Positions 824-14,546 of a DNA stretch of 21,640 nucleotides are shown one piece after another. Position 1 is the first letter of the stretch; each line of letters starts with the position of its first letter. The DNA comes from a virus. The DNA is taken from positions 1 to 21,640 of IMG/VR virus record IMGVR_UViG_3300028840_004868; one strand, given 5' to 3'. Both the position numbers and the translations under genes were made by a program. The notes beneath the pieces were generated by a model that saw only the letters and a program-made list of their open reading frames with translations, was not told the origin of the DNA and ran no database searches.

Positions 824-1873
824 CTATTCATCAATATAAAGACCTTCCAAATCAACTTTCTCTTGAGGTTTTCTTTTTTTCTTCTCAAGACCAAAACTTT
901 CTGGCCAAGTTTCTTTACATAATTCCATAAGAATCTTATCATCGAATTTATTAGCTCTACCTTTCAAATCACCATAAGAATAAGAGCCACTAGCTTTGGT
1001 TACAACACGTTCTTTTACCGCATTCTCAAGAACACTTACCGGGTTATCATACCCATTTTTAAAATTCAAATATAGGTCCGCTTCTTGTTCCGGAGAAAAG
1101 AAAGCATTTGCATCAGTTTTTATACTAATTATCTTACCTATACTCTTTCCGGACTTTTCCCATTTACCCTTATTCTTTAGTAATAACCTTACTCTAGATA
1201 GTGCCCGGCTACCCCCGCCTCCGGTAGTAGTATAAAGAGCACCAAACATGTTTCCTATCTTCGAAATGAGATGGTTTGCAAGTATGACGGATGTTCCGGT
1301 CCGGTAGCAAACACCTCCCAACTCTCTACAAAATTCCCACATAATACGAGACTTATTTGCTACAGTAGATTTCTCAGTAGTAGCTAAGCTCATATCATCC
1401 CAAAAGATCATTACATCAAAACCATTTTCTTTAGCAATATTTATTGTATTTTTTACCATATCAAGAGCTTTTTCAGAAGTAGACAGGGGTATCATAACTA
1501 CCTCATCAAGGTCTACTCCTATACGTTTTGCTCTTTCAATATCGTCTGCTGCAGATAATTTTGGATCTAATATTATTGGAACAATATTTTTCTTATGACA
1601 AGAGGCTATAGTGTGCAATATGAGGCTCGTCTTTCCAACTTTTTCTTTACCATATATCTCTATAAAGTAACCTTTAGGAAAGCCTCCAATACCCAATACC
1701 CCCCAATCTATAGCCATTAGCCCAGTAGGTATAACTTCTAATGGACGAGCATCTATCATTTTAATAACAGATTCTTTTCCAAAAGCTTTATTCAATGAGT
1801 CTAATACTAATTCAGATGGTTTCTTTTTATCTTTCTTAGGAGTTTCTTTTTTAGTTGTTTTCTTTTTTGCCAA
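824..1873 (-). CDS. recA: RecA-like recombinase
   Basis: RecA/UvsX-type strand-exchange ATPase. Numbering from the longer GTG reading at 1879: Walker A GKEKVGKTS at 77-85, a Walker B-like strand DVMIFWDD near 155-162, ANH at 201-203 in the place of the RecA sensor motif, and a glycine-rich L2-like loop TTTGGGGSR near 217-225 followed by a RecA-type strand RVRLLL. The N-terminus is very lysine-rich and the tail ends in LEGLYIDE, an acidic tip. GTG at 1879 overlaps the ribosome binding site AAGGAG (minus strand, 1884-1879). TTG at 1873 has ideal five-base spacing, so I prefer it and the protein would be 349 aa. It lies between the ParB-like and Mre11-like genes and presumably works with the gp32-like SSB in recombination or repair. 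Confidence 0.88.
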   Translation of the reverse strand: MAKKKTTKKETPKKDKKKPSELVLDSLNKAFGKESVIKMIDARPLEVIPTGLMAIDWGVLGIGGFPKGYFIEIYGKEKVGKTSLILHTIASCHKKNIVPIILDPKLSAADDIERAKRIGVDLDEVVMIPLSTSEKALDMVKNTINIAKENGFDVMIFWDDMSLATTEKSTVANKSRIMWEFCRELGGVCYRTGTSVILANHLISKIGNMFGALYTTTGGGGSRALSRVRLLLKNKGKWEKSGKSIGKIISIKTDANAFFSPEQEADLYLNFKNGYDNPVSVLENAVKERVVTKASGSYSYGDLKGRANKFDDKILMELCKETWPESFGLEKKKRKPQEKVDLEGLYIDE

Positions 1874-1882
1874 AGCCACTCC

Positions 1883-2785
1883 TTATAAATAATCTCTTAA
1901 AGAGAGTACCCATTCTAAAGTTTCAATCTTTTCTTGTTCTGTTTCTATATCCATATCATTAAGCATATCTGTAATCTCGTATTTTGAGCGAACTTTACCT
2001 TTCAAGGGTTTGTGCCTCGCCATAGGCCCAGAAATTTTCTTGCGTGCTATACGAGCTTCTAATTCATGATACTCAAGCCTATCTGCCTTTTCTAAAAAAT
2101 ATAATTGGTCTTCTAAATCTGCCATTGCAATGGCTCTCATTTTACTATAAGATATATCACCTTTATTGTAAGCCAAACGAACAGCAGGAGACATATTACT
2201 CGATATGTGTTTATGTCTACACACCATTGATTGAGATATTCCAAAAAGCTCTCCTACATATCTTTCTGGTAAAAAACCCAATCTACCATTAGGTTTTTTC
2301 CTACCAATACTAAGGACTTTATATACAATATCAGATACGTCTAATGGGTCTAAATTATCTAAACCATTTATTATATAAGAAAGCACATTTTCATTTATAT
2401 CTTTACGAAGTATTTTTATAGGTACTAAAGTTTCAAAACCATCTTCGTGTAATTTTTCAACAGTATTTAGCAATACATAATTGTTTATTGCTAAATACGA
2501 ACAAGGTGCTAATTCATAATTTCTATAAACAAATGTAGTATCCTTAATACCCTTTTCCTTTATACTACCATATAAAAAAGGATCTGACTCTTCATTATCA
2601 CAGTGCCATCGAATAGTGTTTATATGAGTTAATCTCGTTTTTCGAATAGCTTCTACACGTATATGATCTCTTTCTTGAAACGTGTCTGTAAAAAAACGAG
2701 TGTCTCCTACAAGGAACTCAGGGGAGTAATCGGTATAACCGATTGTCTCCCCTTCAGATTCCCCGTAAAATATTACAAAAGACAC
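1883..2785 (-). CDS. ParB-like DNA-binding protein
   Basis: A 300-aa protein whose central part looks like the ParB/KorB fold. A segment around residues 72-127 resembles a degenerate ParB N-terminal domain, and a helix-turn-helix lies near 174-195 (YVGELFGISQSMVCRH). It is followed by a ParB-type helical stretch (SPAVRLAYNKGDISYSKMRAIA, about 199-220). The GERRxR box that binds CTP in canonical ParB is not visible; NNYVLLNTVEKL occupies the place where I would expect it. The C-terminus is charged and helical. It starts with GTG inside TAGTG, the stop of the SSB gene, with no ribosome binding site, so translation is probably coupled. Its position between SSB and RecA suggests a role in replication or recombination rather than plasmid-style partition; that is inference. 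Confidence 0.6.
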   Translation of the reverse strand: MSFVIFYGESEGETIGYTDYSPEFLVGDTRFFTDTFQERDHIRVEAIRKTRLTHINTIRWHCDNEESDPFLYGSIKEKGIKDTTFVYRNYELAPCSYLAINNYVLLNTVEKLHEDGFETLVPIKILRKDINENVLSYIINGLDNLDPLDVSDIVYKVLSIGRKKPNGRLGFLPERYVGELFGISQSMVCRHKHISSNMSPAVRLAYNKGDISYSKMRAIAMADLEDQLYFLEKADRLEYHELEARIARKKISGPMARHKPLKGKVRSKYEITDMLNDMDIETEQEKIETLEWVLSLRDYL

Positions 2786-3594
2786 TAGTAATCTGAATAA
2801 TCAGCGGTGTAATTATTTGAACCACTAGTTAAATCTTCAATCCATTGTTTTACTTCATCATAAGGCATTGGGGAATGAATTTTTTCCATTGGGTTTTTCA
2901 TCAATTCACTCCAAATAGATTGAAAAGGAATAGATTTCCTCTGGAGAACTTGAACATTATACTCAATTTTACTTCCTTTTTCTGTCCTTTTTACTAAAAT
3001 TTGCATGAGTGCTTTCGGATCATGTAAAGCTGCGCCGTATTTTATTTGTGACAATAATGGCTCAACTATTGTCTTGGACATACGTGCTAAGGCCACATCC
3101 CAACGACTCTTGTCACTAGAAGTAATATTTACTATATTAGCAAAAGCTTGAGTATTCGGGTATAATTGTCCACCAAGCTTTTTATGTGCCCTATTTGTTG
3201 ATGCTTTTAAATCATTCATCCATTCACACCATGCACATTTTTTTTCTCCATGTGCAAGTGCACATGCTTGCATTTTTGATAAATCTTCAGGAAAAGTTAC
3301 ACCTAAACCTTTCTCTAAATCTCCAAGATAATGAACAGAAGTTACTGCAAATGGTAAATTATTTGGAACTCCATAACTTCTTTTTGGAGGTAGTAACAGC
3401 ATTACAGTGTCACCATTAGGGAATTTAAAAATTGCATTTTTACTTTCTAGTTGTTTTTCTAATTTTGCTACTGCATTTTCGTCCATTTCAAAAGCGAGAT
3501 CATCATTGTTTTGTGTTTGATTTTTTGGCATTGTTTCCTCTTTCTTTGTTTCTTCTTTTGGTTTTCTTGTTCTTTTTTTCTTTGGTACTATCAT
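2785..3594 (-). CDS. gp32-like single-stranded DNA-binding protein
   Basis: A 269-aa protein resembling phage gp32-type SSBs. It has a basic N-terminal arm, a core with a probable zinc site (H88, C111, H115, C120, C123; the CAWC pair is the clearest part), an aromatic and basic core with HYLGDLEKGLG and SKSRWDVAL-like stretches, and an acidic/aromatic tail NNYTADYSDY of the kind that recruits partner proteins. The ATG at 3594 has GAGG six bases upstream and begins one base after the stop of the preceding gene. A second ATG at 3531 (Met22) has its own GAGG at 3537-3540, so a shorter form lacking the lysine-rich extension is possible. Its neighbours are a coiled-coil protein upstream and the ParB-like and RecA-like proteins downstream, a typical recombination context. 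The function assignment is by pattern, not alignment. Confidence 0.65.
   Translation of the reverse strand: MIVPKKKRTRKPKEETKKEETMPKNQTQNNDDLAFEMDENAVAKLEKQLESKNAIFKFPNGDTVMLLLPPKRSYGVPNNLPFAVTSVHYLGDLEKGLGVTFPEDLSKMQACALAHGEKKCAWCEWMNDLKASTNRAHKKLGGQLYPNTQAFANIVNITSSDKSRWDVALARMSKTIVEPLLSQIKYGAALHDPKALMQILVKRTEKGSKIEYNVQVLQRKSIPFQSIWSELMKNPMEKIHSPMPYDEVKQWIEDLTSGSNNYTADYSDY
3529..3540 (-). promoter_or_regulatory. Internal ribosome binding site and second start of the SSB gene
   Basis: GAGG at 3540-3537, five bases, then in-frame ATG at 3531-3529. It would give a 248-aa SSB without the 21-residue basic N-terminal arm. Both this and the ATG at 3594 have good spacing, so either or both may be used. 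Confidence 0.35.
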
Positions 3595-4038: not shown

Positions 4039-4305
4039 CTATCCATAAGCTTCTCTCAAAACATCTTCTAAATCACTCCAAGAAAAACAAAACCCCAAAC
4101 GTCTAAGATTCTTACCATCTTCCATACAACAATCACAAACTTTTAAATTAGACCACTCTCCATCATAAAGAATATTTATTGCAAAGTATTCATCTCCTTT
4201 TTCTATACATTCTCTACAACAATCACATACGTGATTTTTATTAGCTTTTCTTTTTATTTCTTCATAGATATCACAATACCCATATTCACAAGCACAATAA
4301 CTCAT
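4039..4305 (-). CDS. Small Cys-rich probable zinc-binding protein
   Basis: An 88-aa protein with eleven cysteines. CxxC pairs at C27-C30 (HVCDCC, also C29 and C33) and C57-C60 (VCDCC) have equivalent spacing, as in treble-clef or zinc-ribbon knuckles. Extra cysteines at 4, 6, 11 and 73 could bind a second metal. The ATG at 4305 has AGGAGG four bases upstream. It is encoded between the UDG-polymerase and the coiled-coil/SSB genes, so it is probably made with the replisome. Zinc binding is inferred from the cysteine pattern; I recognise no specific family. Confidence 0.7.
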   Translation of the reverse strand: MSYCACEYGYCDIYEEIKRKANKNHVCDCCRECIEKGDEYFAINILYDGEWSNLKVCDCCMEDGKNLRRLGFCFSWSDLEDVLREAYG

Positions 4306-4313
4306 AAAACCTC

Positions 4314-6866
4314 CTACAAATCATATTGACCGTAAATATAGTGACTCTTTGGTGCTTCTGGATATTTAGGATTATCTAAACTATTTATAGTTATACCTTC
4401 TTTCATATCACCTAAAGAATCGCCTACTTTAAAGTCAACTTCTAATGGTACATCACGAATAGTTGGTTGAGTTACCAATACATAACCTATCGCTTTACAA
4501 GCCTCTTCAATCATATCCTCGTGAACTAAAAATAAAATACTATCATGCACAGTACCTATTATAGCGGCAACACCAGGCAATTTATTATTTACCAATAAAT
4601 TATGTGAAGAAACCATACCTCTTAAAGTATATTCTTGCGCACCACCTTGAATCTTAGTATTTATTGCTTGTCTTTCAGCACCACCTTTTTTTGTTCTATT
4701 GCTCAAACCAATATCAGGCAGCCACCTAACTCGAATAGGTTCACCACACCAATTAACCCATACACAACCGGCCTTAGAAGCCTCTAGAATAGTACGTATT
4801 TGATAACGTCTTACACCCTTATAAAGTTGAAAATAACGTTTCTTGGTTTCCTTAGCCTCTTCTAAAGTAAGCTCTACACCATAATCTTGGAGAGCATATT
4901 CTTGAAGTCTATATTCAGACATACCAAAAGCTAATCCAAAATTTGCCGGTTTTCCTGATTGTCTTTGTTCTTTAGACACTTTTTCAATAGGAATACCTGA
5001 AATAAAAGCAGCAGTTTTTTTATGAATATCTACACGTTCTAAATATGCTTTTATTAATTCTTCATCACCGCTTTCTTGAGCCATTTGACGCAATTCAGCT
5101 TGTCCAAAATCTACTTCGAGTATTTTCAAAAAAGGTAGTGGTGATGTTAAACATGAACGTAATAATTTTGATTCTTCGTTTGCTGGTCTAGGTAAATTTT
5201 GAAGGTTCGGGTTACTACTACTCAATCTACCTGTTCTTACAATCCTATAAAATGTATGTAGTTTATATGTACTATCCCAACGTTTCTCCCAACCTTTTAC
5301 ATAAGTATTATATAATGTAGATAATCGAGAGTGCTCTAGTATATTATCAACAATATCTATTTTACCTTTGAAACTTTGAACAACATATTTATCAGTACTA
5401 GCAGATCCTTTATCTGTTTTCTTTGCTATTTTCTTTTTAAATCCATTTTCATTATCAAACAATAATTCTCTCATATGATAAGAAGATGCAATATTAAATA
5501 TGCCATCTTTTATCTTATCGGAATTCTTAGCAACTTTTTGAACAGTTGTATTTGCTAATATTATATCTTCTTGTTTTTTTATGTTATCATTAAGATAACT
5601 CTTAAGAGAAGAATGTACCGAAGTATCTACTTGCATACCTATTGATTCTATGTCATACAAAACAGCTCCAAGTTTATGATAGAGATCTTCATATGTAGAT
5701 AATAAACCAAATTTCTTTAGCATATCATAATATAAAATAACTAACCGATAAGTTGCAATAGTATCCAGAGCGCAATACCACATTGTAAAACGTGGATTAT
5801 CATCATAAGCTTTTTCATAGCCAGATCCTCTTTTATTTTTCAGTTTAGAGTGAAAAACTTCTTTGTGACCACCCATTCCAACCATATATTCACAAGTAGC
5901 TAAATCATTACGTAATTCAGGATTAAAAATACTACGAAGGATCATAGAATCTATAAAAGGTTTTTTAGTAAAAACACTACGTTTTAAACCTAGTTGTTCA
6001 GTTATTTTAGCGTCTGCTTTCCAACTATGGGCACACACTACTATATTATCATCTAAAAATAAATTTTCTAACTCTTTCAAAAAATTAACATTTTTAAATA
6101 CATCTTCTGGAAAAGCTACCGCATTATTCGCACCCCAACATAAGGAGGCGCATAAAGCCCTATCACTATCAGAGTTAAATTCAGTATCATAACCTATAAG
6201 ATATTTTCCATAAAAGTTTGGTTTATTCGCTTTTTTTCTTATACCTTTTAATATATCTATAGCTTTATATACATTATCAATATAAACAACTCCACAAGCC
6301 TCCCAATGCACCCAAGAGTTATTAGGAGGGTTTAATACTCTATACATAGATAAGCGCTCCCAATAAGGAATGAGCGCTTTATTACGAAGAAGATTTGTTG
6401 GGTGCATAAAATATTCAATAGTATATTGAGTACCACCATATTCATGTATAGTATAAGCCCCGAATAGATTCGTTATAGATAATTTTTCACCAGTAAAAGT
6501 GTGTAAAGCCTTAGCTCCAAAAGCAAATATACGTTTAGGTTTAATAGTATCTATCAATGACCATAAACGTTCACTACAATATGGTATATGAGAATCAACA
6601 TCAGTAGTGTAACAGGAAACACAATTTGTAATATAGTATGTAGGACGATAGCCGAATTTATTCTCATACACATCTAAAGCTTTTTCAAGCCAAGATCTAA
6701 AAACCTTTCCAGTAGGCCCTACGAATACTTTTTTTAGTTTTCTTTCTTCTTCACCAGGAGATTCGCCTACAATAAGCCAATCTACAGTATTTGTATTACC
6801 ATAATCATTTACATATAATGAATTTAAATCCTCAAATAAAGGACATAACTTATTATTACATACCAA
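4314..6866 (-). CDS. Uracil-DNA glycosylase (family 4-like) fused to family A DNA polymerase with 3'-5' exonuclease
   Basis: An 850-aa replicative polymerase with three parts. Residues 1-178 form a UDG-superfamily domain: C3 and C8 plus C82/C85 and C97 could hold the [4Fe-4S] cluster of family 4 enzymes, GESPGEEE (34-41) and FVGPTGK (48-54) match motif 1, and MHPTN (154-158) matches motif 2. Residues 220-385 form a DEDDy proofreading exonuclease: D227/E229, D285, and Y364/D368. Residues 395-850 form the polymerase: motif A LEVDFGQAELR (D586), motif B RQSGKPANFGLAFG (K639, F643), and motif C GTVHDS (D775), with Ser where Glu is usual. No 5'-3' exonuclease domain is seen. It starts with TTG at 6866, three bases after the previous stop, with AAAGG upstream; the next Met would destroy the UDG domain. 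It probably removes or senses uracil during phage replication. Confidence 0.92.
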   Translation of the reverse strand: MVCNNKLCPLFEDLNSLYVNDYGNTNTVDWLIVGESPGEEERKLKKVFVGPTGKVFRSWLEKALDVYENKFGYRPTYYITNCVSCYTTDVDSHIPYCSERLWSLIDTIKPKRIFAFGAKALHTFTGEKLSITNLFGAYTIHEYGGTQYTIEYFMHPTNLLRNKALIPYWERLSMYRVLNPPNNSWVHWEACGVVYIDNVYKAIDILKGIRKKANKPNFYGKYLIGYDTEFNSDSDRALCASLCWGANNAVAFPEDVFKNVNFLKELENLFLDDNIVVCAHSWKADAKITEQLGLKRSVFTKKPFIDSMILRSIFNPELRNDLATCEYMVGMGGHKEVFHSKLKNKRGSGYEKAYDDNPRFTMWYCALDTIATYRLVILYYDMLKKFGLLSTYEDLYHKLGAVLYDIESIGMQVDTSVHSSLKSYLNDNIKKQEDIILANTTVQKVAKNSDKIKDGIFNIASSYHMRELLFDNENGFKKKIAKKTDKGSASTDKYVVQSFKGKIDIVDNILEHSRLSTLYNTYVKGWEKRWDSTYKLHTFYRIVRTGRLSSSNPNLQNLPRPANEESKLLRSCLTSPLPFLKILEVDFGQAELRQMAQESGDEELIKAYLERVDIHKKTAAFISGIPIEKVSKEQRQSGKPANFGLAFGMSEYRLQEYALQDYGVELTLEEAKETKKRYFQLYKGVRRYQIRTILEASKAGCVWVNWCGEPIRVRWLPDIGLSNRTKKGGAERQAINTKIQGGAQEYTLRGMVSSHNLLVNNKLPGVAAIIGTVHDSILFLVHEDMIEEACKAIGYVLVTQPTIRDVPLEVDFKVGDSLGDMKEGITINSLDNPKYPEAPKSHYIYGQYDL

Positions 6867-6867
6867 C

Positions 6868-7668
6868 TTACGCGCCTTTCGTTTTTGTTCTATCTCGCCA
6901 AAATTTACCCCATTCTGTTCGTAATCCGTTACGCCTTCTACCTTTCAATACTTTAGATCTTGTTTGTTTTTGAACCTCTTTTAACTGTTCTATAACCTCT
7001 TCTTCATCATCAAAATCATACCCACACTTTACGAATAATTCAAAAATAGCATTTAATGTCATAGCTTTTTCAATATCTTTTGTAATATTTTCCTCAGTTA
7101 TTTCTTCTAAAGTTTCTTTGTCAAACATAGTTTGTTGTTCCTTAAAACTTCCTAAAGGTATGTCTTCTTTTTCTGGAACACCTACTACAACATCATTAAA
7201 TACCAAATCTAAATCATCATCCGTAGTATCTTCAAGTACTATATCTTTTGCTACAGCTTGTACCATAGTATCAATAACTTCTTTAGAAAATACTAACTCA
7301 TCATCATTATTATTTGTTGTATATTTTTCATCAATAACATCTTCAATAGGTTTTTTATTTTCCCAACGCTCAGCATCTTCATCAAAAATAGCAATATCTG
7401 TTTTCTGTGGTTTATTTTCTATAGTATCTTCAACCACCAAATCCATAGAAAGATTCTTAGATAAAAATTGAAACAATAAAATCAAATCGTTATGTGATAA
7501 ATCTCCAACAAGAACATTAAAAGTTGGGTTACTATCAACAGATTGATTTTGTATTTCAACCTTTATTCTACGGTCTCCAAGCACTGCACCCAATGACCAA
7601 ACACCCTCAGCAGATTTGAAAAGCTGAGTATAAAAATCATGACTCGAAAAACTCTCCAACGTTTCCAT
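6868..7668 (-). CDS. Unknown acidic protein with basic C-terminal tail
   Basis: A 266-aa protein that I do not recognise. Residues 1-75 look folded and beta-rich (VWSLGAVLGDRRIKVEIQNQ). Residues 80-220 are very rich in Asp and Glu with low-complexity acidic stretches and look flexible. The last 30 residues are strongly basic and aromatic (KGRRRNGLRTEWGKFWRDR). The ATG at 7668 has GGAGG six bases upstream and lies 32 bases inside the 3' end of the primase gene. The stop is one base from the TTG of the polymerase gene, so this protein and the polymerase are very likely co-translated. An acidic body with a basic tail could be a DNA-mimicking or polymerase-tethering factor, but that is speculation. 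Confidence 0.75.
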   Translation of the reverse strand: METLESFSSHDFYTQLFKSAEGVWSLGAVLGDRRIKVEIQNQSVDSNPTFNVLVGDLSHNDLILLFQFLSKNLSMDLVVEDTIENKPQKTDIAIFDEDAERWENKKPIEDVIDEKYTTNNNDDELVFSKEVIDTMVQAVAKDIVLEDTTDDDLDLVFNDVVVGVPEKEDIPLGSFKEQQTMFDKETLEEITEENITKDIEKAMTLNAIFELFVKCGYDFDDEEEVIEQLKEVQKQTRSKVLKGRRRNGLRTEWGKFWRDRTKTKGA

Positions 7669-8446
7669 GTTTACCCTCCAAAGATTCTATTTCTAAACCT
7701 AGAAAGCTATCATATCCATAATCAGCAGGGTCTTTACCCTCCATTAAACGGACACAATATGCATTATAACCTCTAATACTTGCTTTTAAAACATACTCAA
7801 AAGTATATTCATAAGCATCACTATCAAGTGCAAATATAGGGTTTTTACATCCCAATAATATTCTATCTAATTGTGCTTCTGTTATAGATTTACCTAATGT
7901 AGCTATAGCAGGTAAAGGGTATAAACGTATAACATCTATAGGGCCTTCAACAATTATCAATGTATCATAAGTTTTAAGTAGTTGACCATTATAAATATCA
8001 ATATTTCTATCTATATTTTTATTTATATATGTACCATTTCTTGTTCTATAAACAAATTTATCTTTTTTCATATCTAATAATGGAAAAACAATACCTTGCA
8101 TACTACCATCTAAACATAAGCTTACTTCAAATTTATCCAATACTTCATCAGGTATTTTACGAGTCTTCATATAATAATATGAAGGAGATATTACATTAAA
8201 AGACGTTATAGGAAAAAGTTTTTTATGTTTAGTTGTATTATAACCAATATACGTATCTATAAAATTTATATCTACTACTACGTTAAATTTATTAGCAATT
8301 TCTTTTGTTAGTCTACCATAAGAACCGCAACGATAACATTTATAAGTACCGCTTTCTAAATCTATAGAAGCATTTTCGCGAGAGCCCACACTACCTAATT
8401 TCTCATAACAAAATGGGCACTTGCGTCTAACCTTTCCATACATCAT
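7637..8446 (-). CDS. DnaG-type DNA primase (zinc ribbon plus TOPRIM)
   Basis: A 269-aa primase. The N-terminal zinc ribbon has C10/C13 (CPFC) and C37/C40 (CYRC). The TOPRIM part has VEGPIDV (E167), ALDSD (D208, D210) and GKDPAD (238-242), the metal-binding acids of primases and topoisomerases. It is shorter than bacterial DnaG (about 600 aa) and has no visible helicase-binding domain; phage primases of this size exist. The start is ATG at 8446 inside an ATGA overlap with the stop of the preceding gene, so it is translationally coupled. It lies downstream of the DnaB-type helicase in the same operon. The cluster also encodes an unrelated AEP prim-pol, so which enzyme primes replication is open. 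Confidence 0.88.
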   Translation of the reverse strand: MMYGKVRRKCPFCYEKLGSVGSRENASIDLESGTYKCYRCGSYGRLTKEIANKFNVVVDINFIDTYIGYNTTKHKKLFPITSFNVISPSYYYMKTRKIPDEVLDKFEVSLCLDGSMQGIVFPLLDMKKDKFVYRTRNGTYINKNIDRNIDIYNGQLLKTYDTLIIVEGPIDVIRLYPLPAIATLGKSITEAQLDRILLGCKNPIFALDSDAYEYTFEYVLKASIRGYNAYCVRLMEGKDPADYGYDSFLGLEIESLEGKHGNVGEFFES

Positions 8447-8850
8447 AATTCTTCAAGTTCAACCAACTTATTACGCCAATCTTCTGGATTGCTTTTTATT
8501 TCTGCTTTTAAACTATCAACTTCTGAAACTAAAGATTTAATAGCTTGTTCCTTTTTAAGATTTTCATAATGAGGAATAGCTTCTGCCATAGCCTCATTTA
8601 AAAGATCCATAAGAGCTGGAATATCTTCTAACCATAGACTTTTTGTAATACCGTCCACAGTAGATGAGGTTGGTCTACCAATACGAACCTTTAAATCATA
8701 TGTATTTTCTGGTCTTCTTATTTCAACAACCAGAGTAACGGTTCTACCACTAACATTTTTTATAGTAGCCTCTTTCTTCACAACTAGGTCGTGATCAAGC
8801 CAGTGGTAAAAGGGTTTGTTAACGAATCTATCTGATTTATCTCTTTGCAT
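8443..8850 (-). CDS. Unknown 135-aa protein between helicase and primase
   Basis: I do not recognise this gene. Residues 20-75 alternate like beta strands (TVTLVVEIRR, YDLKVRIGRP, ITKSLWL), and residues 76-135 are helical and charged and may form a coiled coil. The layout loosely recalls small ssDNA-binding folds, but I see no diagnostic motif. The ATG at 8850 has no good ribosome binding site and lies 67 bases inside the helicase gene, a longer overlap than elsewhere in the cluster. The stop overlaps the primase start as ATGA. The coupling to helicase and primase suggests a helicase-primase accessory or loader; this is inferred from position only. Confidence 0.65.
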   Translation of the reverse strand: MQRDKSDRFVNKPFYHWLDHDLVVKKEATIKNVSGRTVTLVVEIRRPENTYDLKVRIGRPTSSTVDGITKSLWLEDIPALMDLLNEAMAEAIPHYENLKKEQAIKSLVSEVDSLKAEIKSNPEDWRNKLVELEEL

Positions 8851-10205
8851 TTTTTATTATCTAACCTTTTAACTTCATTTGTGTCAAAAATTCTACCGTG
8901 TTCAAAATCTGTAGGATAGGGGCCTATTTCTCCTATGTTTTCGCCCCCTTCAACAACCCTACATATTGGTACATATAAACGAGCAACACGATCCATTTGC
9001 TCTTGTTCTGTCCTACATATAGCTATCAATAGATCTAAATGATCTGTTTTTCCAATACAACGGGCTATGTCAGATTCTTTTATTATAAGATTATTCATAG
9101 AATCTCGAGTTAATTGAGAACCCGTCCATACTGCTGCATTAAATCCAGAAGGAACATTTGGATATTTAGTAGGTGAACCTAAATTTCTAATACCCAAATA
9201 AATAGCATCTAAAGCATCATAGTCACTAAGCTTTTCTGTAGGACGTATTAAATCAGCATAATCTATTATTATTACATCAACTTTTCTTTTGGTTATCTGC
9301 TCATGATTAGCAATATAAACACCTATGTCTTCAATAGTCATTGATTTACCAGGAGCAAATTTAACTGTAAAATCCCCTCCTGTTTGCTTAAGTAACTTGT
9401 ATAGTTTATCTTTTACTAATCTAGAAGCATTTTTTCCCCCCCATAAAATATCATTTATGAGAATATCTATTAAGCCGCTAGTTATACGATGTCTTACAAC
9501 ATCTTTCATAAGCTCAAAAGTGAAATATAAAACATTCTTACCTAAAAGAATTGCGGTTTGTGCTATATGACATAGTAATATAGACTTGCCACCCTTACGA
9601 CCAGCTACAACAACTCCAAGCTCACCACGCCCTAAACCACCTATAAGCTTTTCATCTAGCTCATAAACACCTATAGGAAAGCGCTCAACTAAAGACTTAC
9701 TTTCTAATATATCATTAGTATATGACTCTAAACACATACTCATAGGCTCTTCTATAATCAAATCTAAGGAACGAGCAAATTCGAATGATGTATTTATAGT
9801 ATCTCTAATAGCATCATATTCACAATTCTTATACAAAGAAATAGCCTGTTCTAAAGCATTACCCATACTAGTTTTTAATATAGCCTCTTTTACTATATCT
9901 CTTACAGTATCTAAATCAGGATTTTTAAACTGTTTAGATTCATTTATAGTATTCAAAGCATCTTCTACGATATTGCTTTTTATTTTTCCCAACTCGAATT
10001 GTAATTCTATAATAGCAGATAAATGGTTCCAGCCCCCAAAACTCTTTTGTTGTTTTAAGATAGAAAATATAAGACTATCAGACTTCAAAGAAAAAAGATT
10101 TGGATCTAATTTAGACAATAATTGTCTACCATTATCTTTATCTTTAATTATAAGAGCTAACAATTCTGTTATAAACCTCTTTGAGAAAGGGTATGTTTGC
10201 TTCAT
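8784..10205 (-). CDS. dnaB: DnaB-type replicative helicase
   Basis: A 473-aa RecA-fold hexameric helicase. Residues 1-150 form a helical N-terminal region. The DnaB linker and core begin near 177 (PIGVYELDEKLIGGLGRGEL). Walker A is AGRKGGKS (201-208), matching the ARPSMGKT type of DnaB. Walker B is VIIIDYADL (311-319), and WTGSQLTR (360-367) is in the place of the DnaB sensor motif. It unwinds the fork for the UDG-polymerase. The ATG at 10205 lies in an ATGA overlap with the prim-pol stop and has GAAGG six bases upstream. Length and motifs fit the family. The neighbouring genes encode the prim-pol on one side and the TOPRIM primase on the other. Confidence 0.88.
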   Translation of the reverse strand: MKQTYPFSKRFITELLALIIKDKDNGRQLLSKLDPNLFSLKSDSLIFSILKQQKSFGGWNHLSAIIELQFELGKIKSNIVEDALNTINESKQFKNPDLDTVRDIVKEAILKTSMGNALEQAISLYKNCEYDAIRDTINTSFEFARSLDLIIEEPMSMCLESYTNDILESKSLVERFPIGVYELDEKLIGGLGRGELGVVVAGRKGGKSILLCHIAQTAILLGKNVLYFTFELMKDVVRHRITSGLIDILINDILWGGKNASRLVKDKLYKLLKQTGGDFTVKFAPGKSMTIEDIGVYIANHEQITKRKVDVIIIDYADLIRPTEKLSDYDALDAIYLGIRNLGSPTKYPNVPSGFNAAVWTGSQLTRDSMNNLIIKESDIARCIGKTDHLDLLIAICRTEQEQMDRVARLYVPICRVVEGGENIGEIGPYPTDFEHGRIFDTNEVKRLDNKKCKEINQIDSLTNPFTTGLITT

Positions 10206-11212
10206 CCAAAACCTTCCAATACTAAACGCTCACAATTATCATCGAGCAAGAAAGTTTTATAAGTACGTTTTATATCAAAAAACTTTCTAATTTTATAAAC
10301 AAAATTAAATAAACTATTATATAAAGTTGTAAGAATACCGAGCAATTTATTAAAAATTCTTTTTTTAGTATTTGGAGTTTCTACAATACTACGCCAAATA
10401 TATTTAAATATAGAAAGAACCTCTTTATCTTCTAAAGGTTTTTTAAATAATGTACTATTTAAAAAATACAATATAGTATCTAAATATTCAACAAACCACG
10501 CGTATTTATGACAAATACAAGAAGCTATTTTAAATAAAGTATTATTACGATGTCCCTCTCCTATATCAAAACCAATCTTAGAACATATATAATATTTAAA
10601 ACCTTTAAAGTAACTTGCAGGAATTTTTTCGTTTTTTAACCCTAAAAAATACAAAAGTTTATCCAAACGGGTTAATTTATCCTTTTCATTAATAAACTCA
10701 ACAACTTTAGGCCTTTCAATTTTTATATTTTCACTACGTTTTTGAGGTATATTTTTTGATAGATCACTCAACAAAAATTTAACTTTTGAAAAGTGATCTG
10801 GACTATCGCATTTATTCTTCCAAGTATAAGTTCCATTTTTAGTTTTCGATCCCGGCCCTATCACATAACCTTTCTCGTTATTACGAATATCTAACCTACC
10901 GTAACGAGTGTCTATATAGCTACCATTACGAATGTCGAATTCAAAAGTATTTATAGAAAAATAAAAATGATAACCTCTTGGAGTTTCAACGCAACCATAT
11001 TCTATATGATTATTTATTAAGTCTTTTTCAAATAGCAAACCTCCTAATTTATTATCAATATCAACTACACAAATCCCACTAGTTTTTCCACACCTAATAC
11101 CATAAGATTCGGTATCTAAAGGTAAACTTTTATTTAATTTATTCCATTTACAATAAGCTATTTTATCGTTAGTTGGAAAAACTAACCATTTAACATCTAT
11201 ATCAAAAGTCAT
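10202..11212 (-). CDS. AEP-type primase-polymerase (prim-pol) with PriCT-like C-terminus
   Basis: A 336-aa protein of the archaeo-eukaryotic primase superfamily. In the chosen frame the catalytic motifs are VVDID near residue 50, TPRGYHFYF (the His motif) near 80-90, and RLDIR near 110-115. The middle is basic. A segment GEGHRNNTLFKIASCICHKY, followed by LEDKEVLSIFKYIWR, looks like a PriCT domain. The frame is open from 11248, but ATG at 11212 is the better start: it has GAGGAG at 11219-11224 with six bases spacing and avoids overlap with the reductase stop at 11223-11225. It can probably start and extend DNA or RNA chains. The last 70 residues are very basic and hydrophobic. This is a second primase in the same operon as the DnaG-type one. 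Confidence 0.85.
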   Translation of the reverse strand: MTFDIDVKWLVFPTNDKIAYCKWNKLNKSLPLDTESYGIRCGKTSGICVVDIDNKLGGLLFEKDLINNHIEYGCVETPRGYHFYFSINTFEFDIRNGSYIDTRYGRLDIRNNEKGYVIGPGSKTKNGTYTWKNKCDSPDHFSKVKFLLSDLSKNIPQKRSENIKIERPKVVEFINEKDKLTRLDKLLYFLGLKNEKIPASYFKGFKYYICSKIGFDIGEGHRNNTLFKIASCICHKYAWFVEYLDTILYFLNSTLFKKPLEDKEVLSIFKYIWRSIVETPNTKKRIFNKLLGILTTLYNSLFNFVYKIRKFFDIKRTYKTFLLDDNCERLVLEGFG

Positions 11213-11218
11213 AAACAA

Positions 11219-11224
11219 CTCCTC
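11219..11224 (-). promoter_or_regulatory. Ribosome binding site that fixes the prim-pol start
   Basis: GAGGAG on the minus strand, six bases before ATG at 11212-11210. It partly overlaps the TGA stop of the reductase gene (11225-11223), which suggests coupled translation. Confidence 0.7.
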
Positions 11225-14200
11225 AACTACATCCGCTAGAACTACCACAATTTGTACAATAAAAACAACTTCCTTGTCTACACATTATAGACCCACAATC
11301 TAAACAAACTTGAGCGTCTTCTTGTGTAGGTTCAAATTTAGTATCTACTACTAAAGATTGTTTTTCATCTTCCATATCATCATCTTCTTCAAAATTATTA
11401 TTCAAAAATTTATTACCTAACCAACGAAAGACATAATCCATAATAGACTTAGCTATAGGTATATCAGAATTGCCTGTAAAGCCACTAGGTTCAAATCGTG
11501 TATGCTCGAATTTATCTACAAGTACTTTTAGAGGTACGCCATATTGAAGCGCCATAGACGTGACTAGAGCCACAGAGTCAACTAGTCCAGAAACTACCGA
11601 GCCGGCCTTAGACATCTTAATAAAAAGCTCACCAGGAGATCCATTTTCGTATAGACCTACAGTAAGGTATCCCTCATGTCCTGCAATAGAAAATTTATGA
11701 TTTATAGCCGCACGTTCATCAGGTAAAGAAATGCGAGAATTATTTTCATATACCATAATAGAAGTTTCCTTATCCGAATTAATATTTTTCGATGTTACTT
11801 GCATAGGTTGAATAGCTTTTGATTTATCACGATAAATAATAATTGATTTCAAACCCTTTTGCCAAGCTTCAACATATAAATCTCTTATATCATCAATAGT
11901 ATAACTACTAGGAATATTAACAGTTTTACTTATACCCCCATTTAAAAATGGTTGTACTGCTGATAACATATCTATATGACCATTGACAGAGATACAACTA
12001 CCGTTTTCTTTTGATGGTAAAGCACAATCAAATACATTAAGATCCATAGTATTTATAAGATCACAAATATCTTCCCCATTCTCTAAATATTCCTTAATAT
12101 TATCTATCTTTCCAGCTTTATAACCTAAACGTTTTAAAGCTGGTTCAACAGACTTACATACACTTTTTATAATACCGCCGCCTACAAGCTGTTTAGTTTT
12201 AAGCAATGAAAACACAGGCTCTATTCCAGTAGAGTCACAATCCATAATAAAAGAGATCGTTCCGCACGGTGCAAGTAAAGTTACTTGTGAGTTGCGTACT
12301 CCATATTTTTCTCTCAAATTATGAAAGCGCTCCCACATACTAGCAAACGTATATTTAAGCATACCATCATAGTTTTGCATCCCATAAGTAACTAATTTTA
12401 CACCGTCAGCTTTTATAGAACCTTTAATTTCAGCTAATTTAGTACTTTGTATGTATGCACTAACTGTCATAAGACTAGTAATACTAGCAACTATTTCTCT
12501 AGCTTCGTTGCTATCATAAGGTATAGCAAGACGCATTAAAAATGCTCCCAAGTTAGTAAAGCCTAAACCTAAAGGACGATATTTTTTAGAATTTTCTTCT
12601 ATAGCTTTACTTGGATACGAGGCTCTATCTATTAAAATTTCTTGTGCTGTTATAAATATTTGAACCGCTCTGCTAAAAGGTTCCCAAAAAGTATTATTAT
12701 ATGAACCATCAGAAAGTTCTAAAAACTTTACTAGGTTCAAACTAGCAAGATTACAAGAAGTATTATCTGGAGCTAAAAATTCACCACAATTATGAACTAC
12801 GAACCCGTTTACAATACCCCAATGCGTTAATGGTTCTGTAAAATCATATACAGATTCAATACCAAGTTCTTGAACTATTTTTATAGAAGGGGAATTATTA
12901 ATAAACCATTTTTCAAAAAAAGCTCTATGTTTTATAAAACTAAATCCAATGTTTTCAGCAAAGTTTTTTAGATTTTTAAACCCAGAAATCATCAAAACAT
13001 TGCCTTTATTTTTTGTAATAAACTCATCACTAGTAAAGTAAGATTCTATATCAAAAAAAGATCTTAACCAACTTTTTAATTCTATTAAATTATCTCTATT
13101 TTTGTCAGCTATACCATACTCACGTTCTTTATTTATAAAACCTTTAGCTGTACAATACCCATTTATAAAATCTGGATTATCATAGGCACTTTCTTGTATC
13201 ATATCTTCTTTAAAATTTTTTGTCTTTACGCCTCTCAAAAATGAACCTTCATTTTTATATCTTCTAAACCGAATATAAGGCAATAATCGTTTACCTAATA
13301 AATCTTTAGCTTCACATTCATCTCCATTATTAAGAAGAAATATATGATCTGGTGTACATCTAATAGGTTCTATATCATGAGTAAATACTAATTCTAATAC
13401 ACGTTTTTTTCCTGTAGATACAACTTTACCTTTAGATACTTCACCATATCTATTTATAACTTCTACCTCTTCATTTGCAAGAAATGCAAAGCTTTCGTAG
13501 CCATTAACAGTAAGAAGCTTCATATCACCAGTAAAACAAGGGTTTGAGCTTCTTATTGGAATATCTAAAGTATTGGCCTTATTAATAGTATCTATAAATT
13601 GAATGCCAGGATCTCCACAATCATAAGAAGCTTTGGCTATTTCATATAATATATCATTGGCTTTTTCAGTAGCAACAACTTCACCATCTACCCTATTAAC
13701 TAAATCCCAAGTATTATTATGTTCAGCCGCTTGCATAAAGTCATCAGATAAACGAACACAATGATTTGCATTTTGAAAGGCTACTGTAGAATAAGCATCT
13801 CCATCTATACTCGAATCATAACCCAACGAAATAAGATCTCTAGCTTTTTGTTCTTCTTTAGGTTTACACTGTATAAATTCAAGTATGTCTGGGTGATCAC
13901 AATCTAATGATCTGAGCACCGCCGCTCTTCTTTTTACCCCTGCGCTTTTTATAACCCCTGCAAACGTGTCCAAAGCTTTCATAAAGGATACTGGACCAGA
14001 ACTTACACCTCCCCTACTAAGCCCTTCATTCGAGGCTCTAAGATTTGAAAGATTAGTTCCTGACCCACTACCACCTTTGAAAATACGAGCTTCTAGCTTG
14101 GCTAGATCCATTATAGAATCCATAGAATCTTCTACATTATTGATGTAACATGCTGATATGTTTGGACTTTCTTCTATGCCAAGATTAAACCACACAGGAC

Positions 14201-14546
14201 TATTGAAGCTACCCATTTGATGGTACAATAGATAAAATAGTTCTCCTCCAAAAATAGCTGCGTCTGAAGGAGATTCAAAGTAACCATCTTCTATCCCCCA
14301 ATCCGCAATAGTAAAGGCTACACGATCTAATACATCTTCAATGGAAGTTTCTCTTTCTTCTGAATTCAACTTACCATTAAAATATTTAGAAACGAATATA
14401 TTTACAGCTTGATCAGACCAATGTTTAGGAACATTCACATCTTTTTGCTCAAATATTACGTTCCCTTCACCATCTACAATACGAGCATCTCTTTTCTCAT
14501 ACTCATATTCTTTAGTTTCTTTAGTAAAATATCTTTCTAAATTCAT
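11223..14546 (-). CDS. nrdJ: Class II (adenosylcobalamin-dependent) ribonucleotide reductase, with intein
   Basis: A 1107-residue precursor; about 857 residues after splicing. It reduces ribonucleotides to deoxyribonucleotides using adenosylcobalamin. NrdJ hallmarks: PVWFNLG (117-123), SACYINN with redox C133, a glycine loop KGGSGSGTNLS (157-167), NPCGE split by the intein (N335, P336, then C587, G588, E589), SCNLASLNL with C598, APCGTISF (759-766), and the NrdJ-type C-terminal region LFIKMSKAGS through TRFEPSG (974-1022). A Cys-rich tail has CLDC (1081-1084), C1089, C1094, CTNC (1097-1100) and C1106. There is no ATP-cone at the N-terminus. The ATG at 14546 has AAGGGTG seven bases upstream. 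It is the first gene of the replication module and so supplies dNTPs. Class II enzymes need no oxygen and no separate small subunit. Confidence 0.95.
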   Translation of the reverse strand: MNLERYFTKETKEYEYEKRDARIVDGEGNVIFEQKDVNVPKHWSDQAVNIFVSKYFNGKLNSEERETSIEDVLDRVAFTIADWGIEDGYFESPSDAAIFGGELFYLLYHQMGSFNSPVWFNLGIEESPNISACYINNVEDSMDSIMDLAKLEARIFKGGSGSGTNLSNLRASNEGLSRGGVSSGPVSFMKALDTFAGVIKSAGVKRRAAVLRSLDCDHPDILEFIQCKPKEEQKARDLISLGYDSSIDGDAYSTVAFQNANHCVRLSDDFMQAAEHNNTWDLVNRVDGEVVATEKANDILYEIAKASYDCGDPGIQFIDTINKANTLDIPIRSSNPCFTGDMKLLTVNGYESFAFLANEEVEVINRYGEVSKGKVVSTGKKRVLELVFTHDIEPIRCTPDHIFLLNNGDECEAKDLLGKRLLPYIRFRRYKNEGSFLRGVKTKNFKEDMIQESAYDNPDFINGYCTAKGFINKEREYGIADKNRDNLIELKSWLRSFFDIESYFTSDEFITKNKGNVLMISGFKNLKNFAENIGFSFIKHRAFFEKWFINNSPSIKIVQELGIESVYDFTEPLTHWGIVNGFVVHNCGEFLAPDNTSCNLASLNLVKFLELSDGSYNNTFWEPFSRAVQIFITAQEILIDRASYPSKAIEENSKKYRPLGLGFTNLGAFLMRLAIPYDSNEAREIVASITSLMTVSAYIQSTKLAEIKGSIKADGVKLVTYGMQNYDGMLKYTFASMWERFHNLREKYGVRNSQVTLLAPCGTISFIMDCDSTGIEPVFSLLKTKQLVGGGIIKSVCKSVEPALKRLGYKAGKIDNIKEYLENGEDICDLINTMDLNVFDCALPSKENGSCISVNGHIDMLSAVQPFLNGGISKTVNIPSSYTIDDIRDLYVEAWQKGLKSIIIYRDKSKAIQPMQVTSKNINSDKETSIMVYENNSRISLPDERAAINHKFSIAGHEGYLTVGLYENGSPGELFIKMSKAGSVVSGLVDSVALVTSMALQYGVPLKVLVDKFEHTRFEPSGFTGNSDIPIAKSIMDYVFRWLGNKFLNNNFEEDDDMEDEKQSLVVDTKFEPTQEDAQVCLDCGSIMCRQGSCFYCTNCGSSSGCS
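12789..13538 (-). mobile_element. Intein in nrdJ, with degenerate LAGLIDADG domain
   Basis: An in-frame insertion of 250 residues (precursor C337 to N586). The splicing signals look intact: block A CFTGDMKLLTVNGY, block B TPDH (398-401), block F-like VYDFTEPLTHWGIVNG and block G VVHN followed by Cys+1. Removal rejoins SSNP to CGEF, giving the expected NPCGE. Residues 460-471 (FINGYCTAKGFI) align with a LAGLIDADG helix, but both acidic positions are replaced (Thr and Lys), and no second motif is seen. So the homing endonuclease is probably dead. The length is between that of mini-inteins and full inteins, consistent with decay. Splicing is predicted from motifs only. Confidence 0.9.

Follow-up and report, generated by a model that had tools for sequence, protein, structure and literature searches.

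The window (the whole 21,640-nucleotide stretch of viral DNA analysed here) encodes a family A DNA polymerase (PolA) that begins with a uracil-DNA glycosylase (UDG) domain, and the catalytic residues of that domain are kept in the window's clade while relatives lose them freely. We put even weight on the explanation that the domain is a cluster-bearing, DNA-contacting module that, in the window's lineage, has kept the ability to excise uracil near the polymerase. The separation of the cysteines from catalysis across the family is a new result, and is more interesting than the architecture itself.

A single open reading frame encodes all three domains of the protein. Translation of the window gave one 850-aa ORF running from 6866 to 4314 on the minus strand (Table 1), and the plus strand of 4314-6866 is riddled with stops. 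Pfam matched PF03167 (UDG; residues 21-173, E-value 2.5e-16, 60.5 bits against a curated cut-off of 24.3), DNA_pol_A_exo1 (residues 216-375, 1.1e-4) and DNA_pol_A (residues 440-818, 8.1e-79), all far beyond chance. These matches bear out an earlier sequence-only reading of the window, which had proposed one 850-aa protein combining a UDG domain, a DEDDy exonuclease and a family A polymerase and had suggested the PF03167 search as a check. The full-length AF2 model (pLDDT 89.9) was built on 61 aligned sequences, and its residues 187-826 resemble Klenow-type polymerases (Z up to 35.9). The residues of a family A polymerase with DEDDy proofreading are present (D586, K639, H774 and D775; D227, E229, Y364 and D368), and among relatives D227 and E229 are conserved in 85/85 and Y364 in 84/85. 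Residue 647 (4926-4928, minus strand), at the motif B position of Klenow Y766, is Phe in the window, L158 and L159 and Tyr in at least 90% of relatives.

Table 1. Positions of the polymerase gene, its domains and motifs, and neighbouring replication genes in the window.
Feature	Positions	Strand	Basis and remarks
RecA/UvsX-like recombinase	824..1879	-	syntenic in L158 and L159
Single-strand DNA-binding protein (SSB)	2785..3594	-	phrog_1192, 2.4e-9; syntenic in L158 and L159
UDG-exonuclease-family A DNA polymerase	4314..6866	-	850 aa; TTG start; AF2 full-length pLDDT 89.9
Family A polymerase domain, residues 440-818 (D586, K639, H774, D775)	4413..5549	-	PF00476, 8.1e-79; Klenow fold, Z 35.9
DEDDy 3'-5' exonuclease domain (D227, E229, D285, Y364, D368)	5742..6221	-	PF01612, 1.1e-4
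UDG-superfamily domain, residues 21-173	6348..6806	-	PF03167, E 2.5e-16; residues 1-184 fold like family-4 UDGs (Z about 21)
UDG motif B, HP (H155, P156)	6399..6404	-	H155 in 85/85; aligned with HPAY of TthUDGa
C97, putative cluster ligand	6576..6578	-	Cys in 81/85; 85/94 in the polymerase-sampled set
C85, putative cluster ligand	6612..6614	-	Cys in 81/85; 91/94 in the polymerase-sampled set
N81, uracil-binding position (N91 in UdgX)	6624..6626	-	alignment; UdgX role from PMC10359453
UDG motif A, GESPGEEE (residues 34-41; catalytic-position E35, E41)	6744..6767	-	pairs with GEGPGEEE in T. thermophilus UDGa; E41 in 84/85
C3 and C8, putative N-terminal cluster ligands (CxxxxC)	6843..6860	-	C8 conserved in 81/85
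AAAGG, ribosome-binding-site-like	6875..6879	-	8 nt upstream of the TTG start; inferred from sequence
Toprim primase	7637..8446	-	profile matches; syntenic in L158 and L159
DnaB-like replicative helicase	8784..10205	-	profile matches; syntenic in L158 and L159

The N-terminal domain has a predicted UDG fold that is closest to that of the family-4 UDGs. An AF2 model of residues 1-186 alone (64 sequences) had a pLDDT of 92.4, and its best structural matches were the family-4 enzymes 4zbx, 1vk2, 4zby and 1ui1 (Z 20.6-20.9 over 170-175 residues, rmsd 2.6-2.8). This UDG fold and the significant PF03167 match both went in favor of the earlier reading. UdgX came next at Z 18-20, ahead of the UDG portion of phiLo 9QHS (Z 15.7) and of TDG/Mug (Z about 14). 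The best sequence relative in the PDB was UDGa of T. thermophilus (1ui0, E 5.5e-13). The domain scored far under the curated cut-offs of both NCBIfam family-4 models (50.8 against 125.3 bits for TIGR00758, and 51.5 against 250 for NF040953), and we therefore call it family-4-like and not a member of family 4. It matched the NCBIfam UdgX model with 45 bits. Motif A of family 4 is GE(A/G)PG (PMC10359453); the window has GESPG, with a Ser at the variable position that occurs in 3/64 aligned domains.

The active-site positions of family 4 are intact in the window. In the alignment with T. thermophilus UDGa (TthUDGa), E35, E41, F48, N81 and H155 are identical residue for residue, F48 pairing with the phenylalanine of FVG, N81 with the asparagine of ITN, C85 with the cysteine of KC, and H155 with HPAY; the catalytic E, N and H of family 4 thus correspond to E41, N81 and H155. 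The equivalents of N81 and H155 in UdgX, N91 and H178, hold uracil (PMC10359453). Both motifs that had been described as intact, GESPG (residues 34-38) and HP (residues 155-156), align with TthUDGa. Conservation counts over 85 relatives are biased by the GE[AS]PG patterns used in the search, and a polymerase-seeded sample was used instead for the counts of intact and dead domains given below.

Four cysteines form the likely ligand set of a putative [4Fe-4S] cluster. The sequence-only reading had listed five (residues 3, 8, 82, 85 and 97); all five are present, and C8, C85 and C97 are each found in 81/85 relatives. C82 is found in 1/85, that is, in the window protein only, and so is no conserved ligand, which leaves C3, C8, C85 and C97. 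The N-terminal pair is a CxxC in 58/64 aligned domains; it is CxxC in L159, CxxxC in L158 and, among these domains, CxxxxC in the window alone. The in-frame region upstream of the TTG start encodes no Cys, making C3 the sole candidate for the first ligand, and C3 at this unusual spacing is probably that ligand. The GESPG motif A and the atypical CxxxxC spacing could mean that the cluster or the activity is altered.

The polymerase lies in a replication module that is shared with its nearest kin. These are L158 (a 41.7-kb contig) and L159 (a 95.8-kb contig), which are 35-36% identical to the window across the whole polymerase and form one clade with it on the polymerase-domain tree (support 99). 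The order helicase, DnaB, small protein, Toprim primase, Pol, SSB, RecA is common to all three. This clade, with DnaB, primase and SSB as neighbours, supports a replicative role for the polymerase. The window polymerase is divergent: no sequence found exceeds about 40% identity to it in the polymerase domain. A single-protein search of viral_contigs with it found no relative, and the nearest kin emerged only when the polymerase domain alone was the search seed.

Several other genes were observed. A small conserved gene (8443-8850, minus strand) overlaps by 67 bases the 3' end of the region next to the DnaB-like gene (8784-10205, minus strand), and L158 and L159 have its homologue in the corresponding position. 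The module has two primase types, a Prim-Pol (AEP-type; 10202-11248, minus strand) and the Toprim primase. Directly after the polymerase gene is an 88-aa, cysteine-rich, zinc-ribbon-like protein (4039-4305, minus strand) that matches phrog_28814 and phrog_7314, both function-unknown families. A class II ribonucleotide reductase (11223-14546, minus strand) is split by an intein at about residues 341-586 (CFTGD...VVHNC; Pfam Intein_splicing, 4e-4).

The fusion of UDG to PolA is a standard architecture in phage PolA, neither rare nor new. A scan seeded with four fusions found at least 574 viral-contig stretches that encode relatives; an alignment of the UDG domain only was too divergent to serve as a seed. 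When the seed was the polymerase domain only, 58/80 nearest PolA relatives were fused to UDG, and when it was UDG-less polymerases, 52 of the 74 new loci were still fused; with scans limited to about 600 stretches and 80 loci, these fractions hold for the nearest relatives and are no estimate over all phages. The architecture had been called rare in the sequence-only reading, which these counts contradict, and its statement that UDG-like domains fused to phage polymerases had been seen before was correct: known phages with the fusion include Thermus phage phiLo, ctfzr933, StAshley, vir526, Youna2, Almagne and SPO1-type phages. A literature search, with subscription papers outside its reach, turned up no work on UDG-PolA fusions. 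L044, L108 and L121 encode UDG and polymerase as two ORFs that adjoin or overlap, through either a natural split or a frameshift of the fusion.

Catalytic residues of the fused domain have been lost many times in the family, and the cysteines have mostly stayed. We sampled 94 non-redundant fused domains through the polymerase domain, 89 of which were uncut by a contig end. E41, N81 and H155 were all kept in 47/89 and at least one was lost in 42/89 (one in 5, two or three in 37). All four cysteines were kept in 28 of the 37 domains missing two or three catalytic residues. For example, the raw sequence of L258 has TKTPL for GEAPG and ISPSAV for HP and has kept CTDC, KC and the last Cys. The difference between intact and not intact requires a minimum of 16 changes on the polymerase tree, an approximate count because this FastTree tree has many weak forks; if only the starred branches are counted, the intact label still needs at least 8 changes. 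The window, L158 and L159 all keep the three catalytic residues, although three sequences are weak statistical evidence.

This pattern points to two roles for the domain. A fold that is kept without catalysis, usually with its cysteines, suggests another role, and the 28/37 domains argue for such a second role. Lineages with a preserved active site, the window's clade among them, probably make use of catalysis; that the clade has kept these residues despite their loss in 42/89 speaks for selection acting on its active site. The suggestion that the window's domain is active and more than a scaffold gains weight from this comparison. Based on these results, we believe that the domain's family-wide role is probably structural or DNA-binding, with uracil excision added in lineages like the window's. 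We hold more tentatively, with less than even confidence, that a [4Fe-4S] UDG-fold module is common to phage replicases, that its cluster serves replication in a structural, DNA-binding or redox capacity separate from glycosylase chemistry, that this chemistry has repeatedly been lost, and that the window's clade is among the lineages retaining a working, replicase-coupled glycosylase.

We favor a mechanism in which the protein would be the family A polymerase that replicates the phage's DNA, with the family-4-like UDG domain at the N-terminal position of the 5'-nuclease domain of bacterial Pol I. The cluster-bearing domain would be an additional DNA-contacting module for the polymerase in all members, and in lineages with E41, N81 and H155, the window's included, it would flip out and excise uracil, mainly where dUMP has been misincorporated into new duplex or where cytosine has deaminated close to the fork. 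The resulting abasic sites would be passed to host AP endonuclease repair. Architecture, predicted fold, conserved residues, synteny and the family pattern were computed, and from them we infer the cluster, the activity, the coupling to the fork and the substrate strand. Excision of uracil from a single-stranded template at the fork would be dangerous, which speaks against this mechanism. The domain could instead be purely a structural, DNA-binding or processivity module, with catalysis either missing or of no consequence in the window, as would hold for SPO1-type polymerases. The many separate losses with cysteines mostly kept, and the UDG profile match that SPO1-type polymerases retain without motif A, N81 or the cysteines, favor this alternative; we consider it unlikely, but a serious contender, because the window and its two closest relatives have preserved every one of the catalytic positions, which drift where they are unneeded. 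It is improbable that the domain is a uracil sensor without turnover, binding template uracil so that the polymerase stalls, with an effect comparable to read-ahead by archaeal family B polymerases. The pocket residues are intact and the fold is shared with uracil-binding UdgX, but the UdgX hallmarks GEQPG and KRRIH are missing and the chemistry residues E41 and H155 are kept.

We also weighed whether the domain reads a modified pyrimidine, as a specialisation for phages with a substitute for cytosine or thymine. A divergent thymidylate-synthase (TS) homologue is found in 18/33 fused records and, in loci that include it, sits 0.2-1.5 kb upstream of the fused Pol (directly upstream in L161:7192-8094, L197:7500-8318, L223, L231 and others). 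D179 of T4 dCMP hydroxymethylase is the residue that selects dCMP (PMC6400193), and the TS homologues, detected by motif pattern, have Asp at the matching position in 88/88 (a motif match and not a structural alignment); cytosine modification may therefore be common in phages with a UDG-fused Pol. In known phages such homologues bear a plain thymidylate synthase annotation. Some known fused phages carry 7-deazaguanine or thymidine-modification genes, which would also fit recognition of a modified base. However, TS-like neighbours did not track catalytic state (27/48 intact versus 24/46 dead; p about 0.6 for independent pairs), 7/17 UDG-less records have the homologue too, neither the window nor L158 shows a TS-like gene, and L159 has only QueC and ThyX. 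As catalytic state is not tracked and the gene is not seen in the window or L158, modified-base recognition does not lead among the explanations for the window, and we consider it very improbable. There was no apparent link of the fusion with ThyX (4/33 fused versus 2/17 UDG-less) or QueC (1/33 fused over the cut-off). Two other links were rejected: dUTPase, of which only the trimeric family was covered, was in 0/33 fused and 1/17 unfused records, and 22/28 records of phages with a UDG-less Pol have no separate UDG that might complement it.

If the domain is active, then one protein both makes DNA and removes its uracil, and fork-coupled uracil repair becomes testable in a single enzyme. The mixture of intact and decayed domains, which usually retain their cysteines, offers a natural experiment on the role of an Fe-S fold in a replicase versus glycosylase chemistry. 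For reagent polymerases, an intact UDG domain would matter with uracil-containing templates.

The domain combines features of known UDGs with differences from each of them. It is like the family-4 enzymes TthUDGa (1ui0), T. maritima TM0511 (1vk2) and S. tokodaii UDG (4zbx) in fold (Z about 21), catalytic positions and the pattern of putative ligand cysteines; those are free-standing, with GE(A/G)PG and CxxC, whereas the window's is fused to a polymerase, with GESPG and CxxxxC. UdgX of M. smegmatis has a similar fold (Z 19-20) but needs GEQPG and KRRIH, and the window has neither: motif A is GESPG and the loop is CYTTDVDSHIPYC. UdgX-type covalent trapping is ruled out by the missing hallmarks, as H93 is in the loop but in no KRRIH context.

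Among known phage polymerases, the window shares with the SPO1 and phiLo types the order UDG, 3'-5' exonuclease, PolA in one ORF. The solved Pol of Thermus phage phiLo (PDB 9QHS; L004) likewise has an N-terminal UDG with intact motifs and CxxC...C...C, followed by exonuclease and PolA, but is 1175 aa with long insertions, and its UDG fold matches the window domain with Z 15.7; the 9QHS chain begins at residue 34, so the solved entry is without the CxxC. The SPO1-type Pol of Bacillus phages (SPO1L1, L306:2176-4953) differs in that motif A, N81 and all of the cluster cysteines are gone and the UDG profile match is kept (8.5e-22). SPO1 DNA contains hydroxymethyluracil. The best full-length match among known phages is the Pol of phage ctfzr933 (MW202455, L002; 27.7% identity over 96%), which has an intact UDG like the window and, in contrast to it, pyrimidine-modification genes in its neighbourhood.
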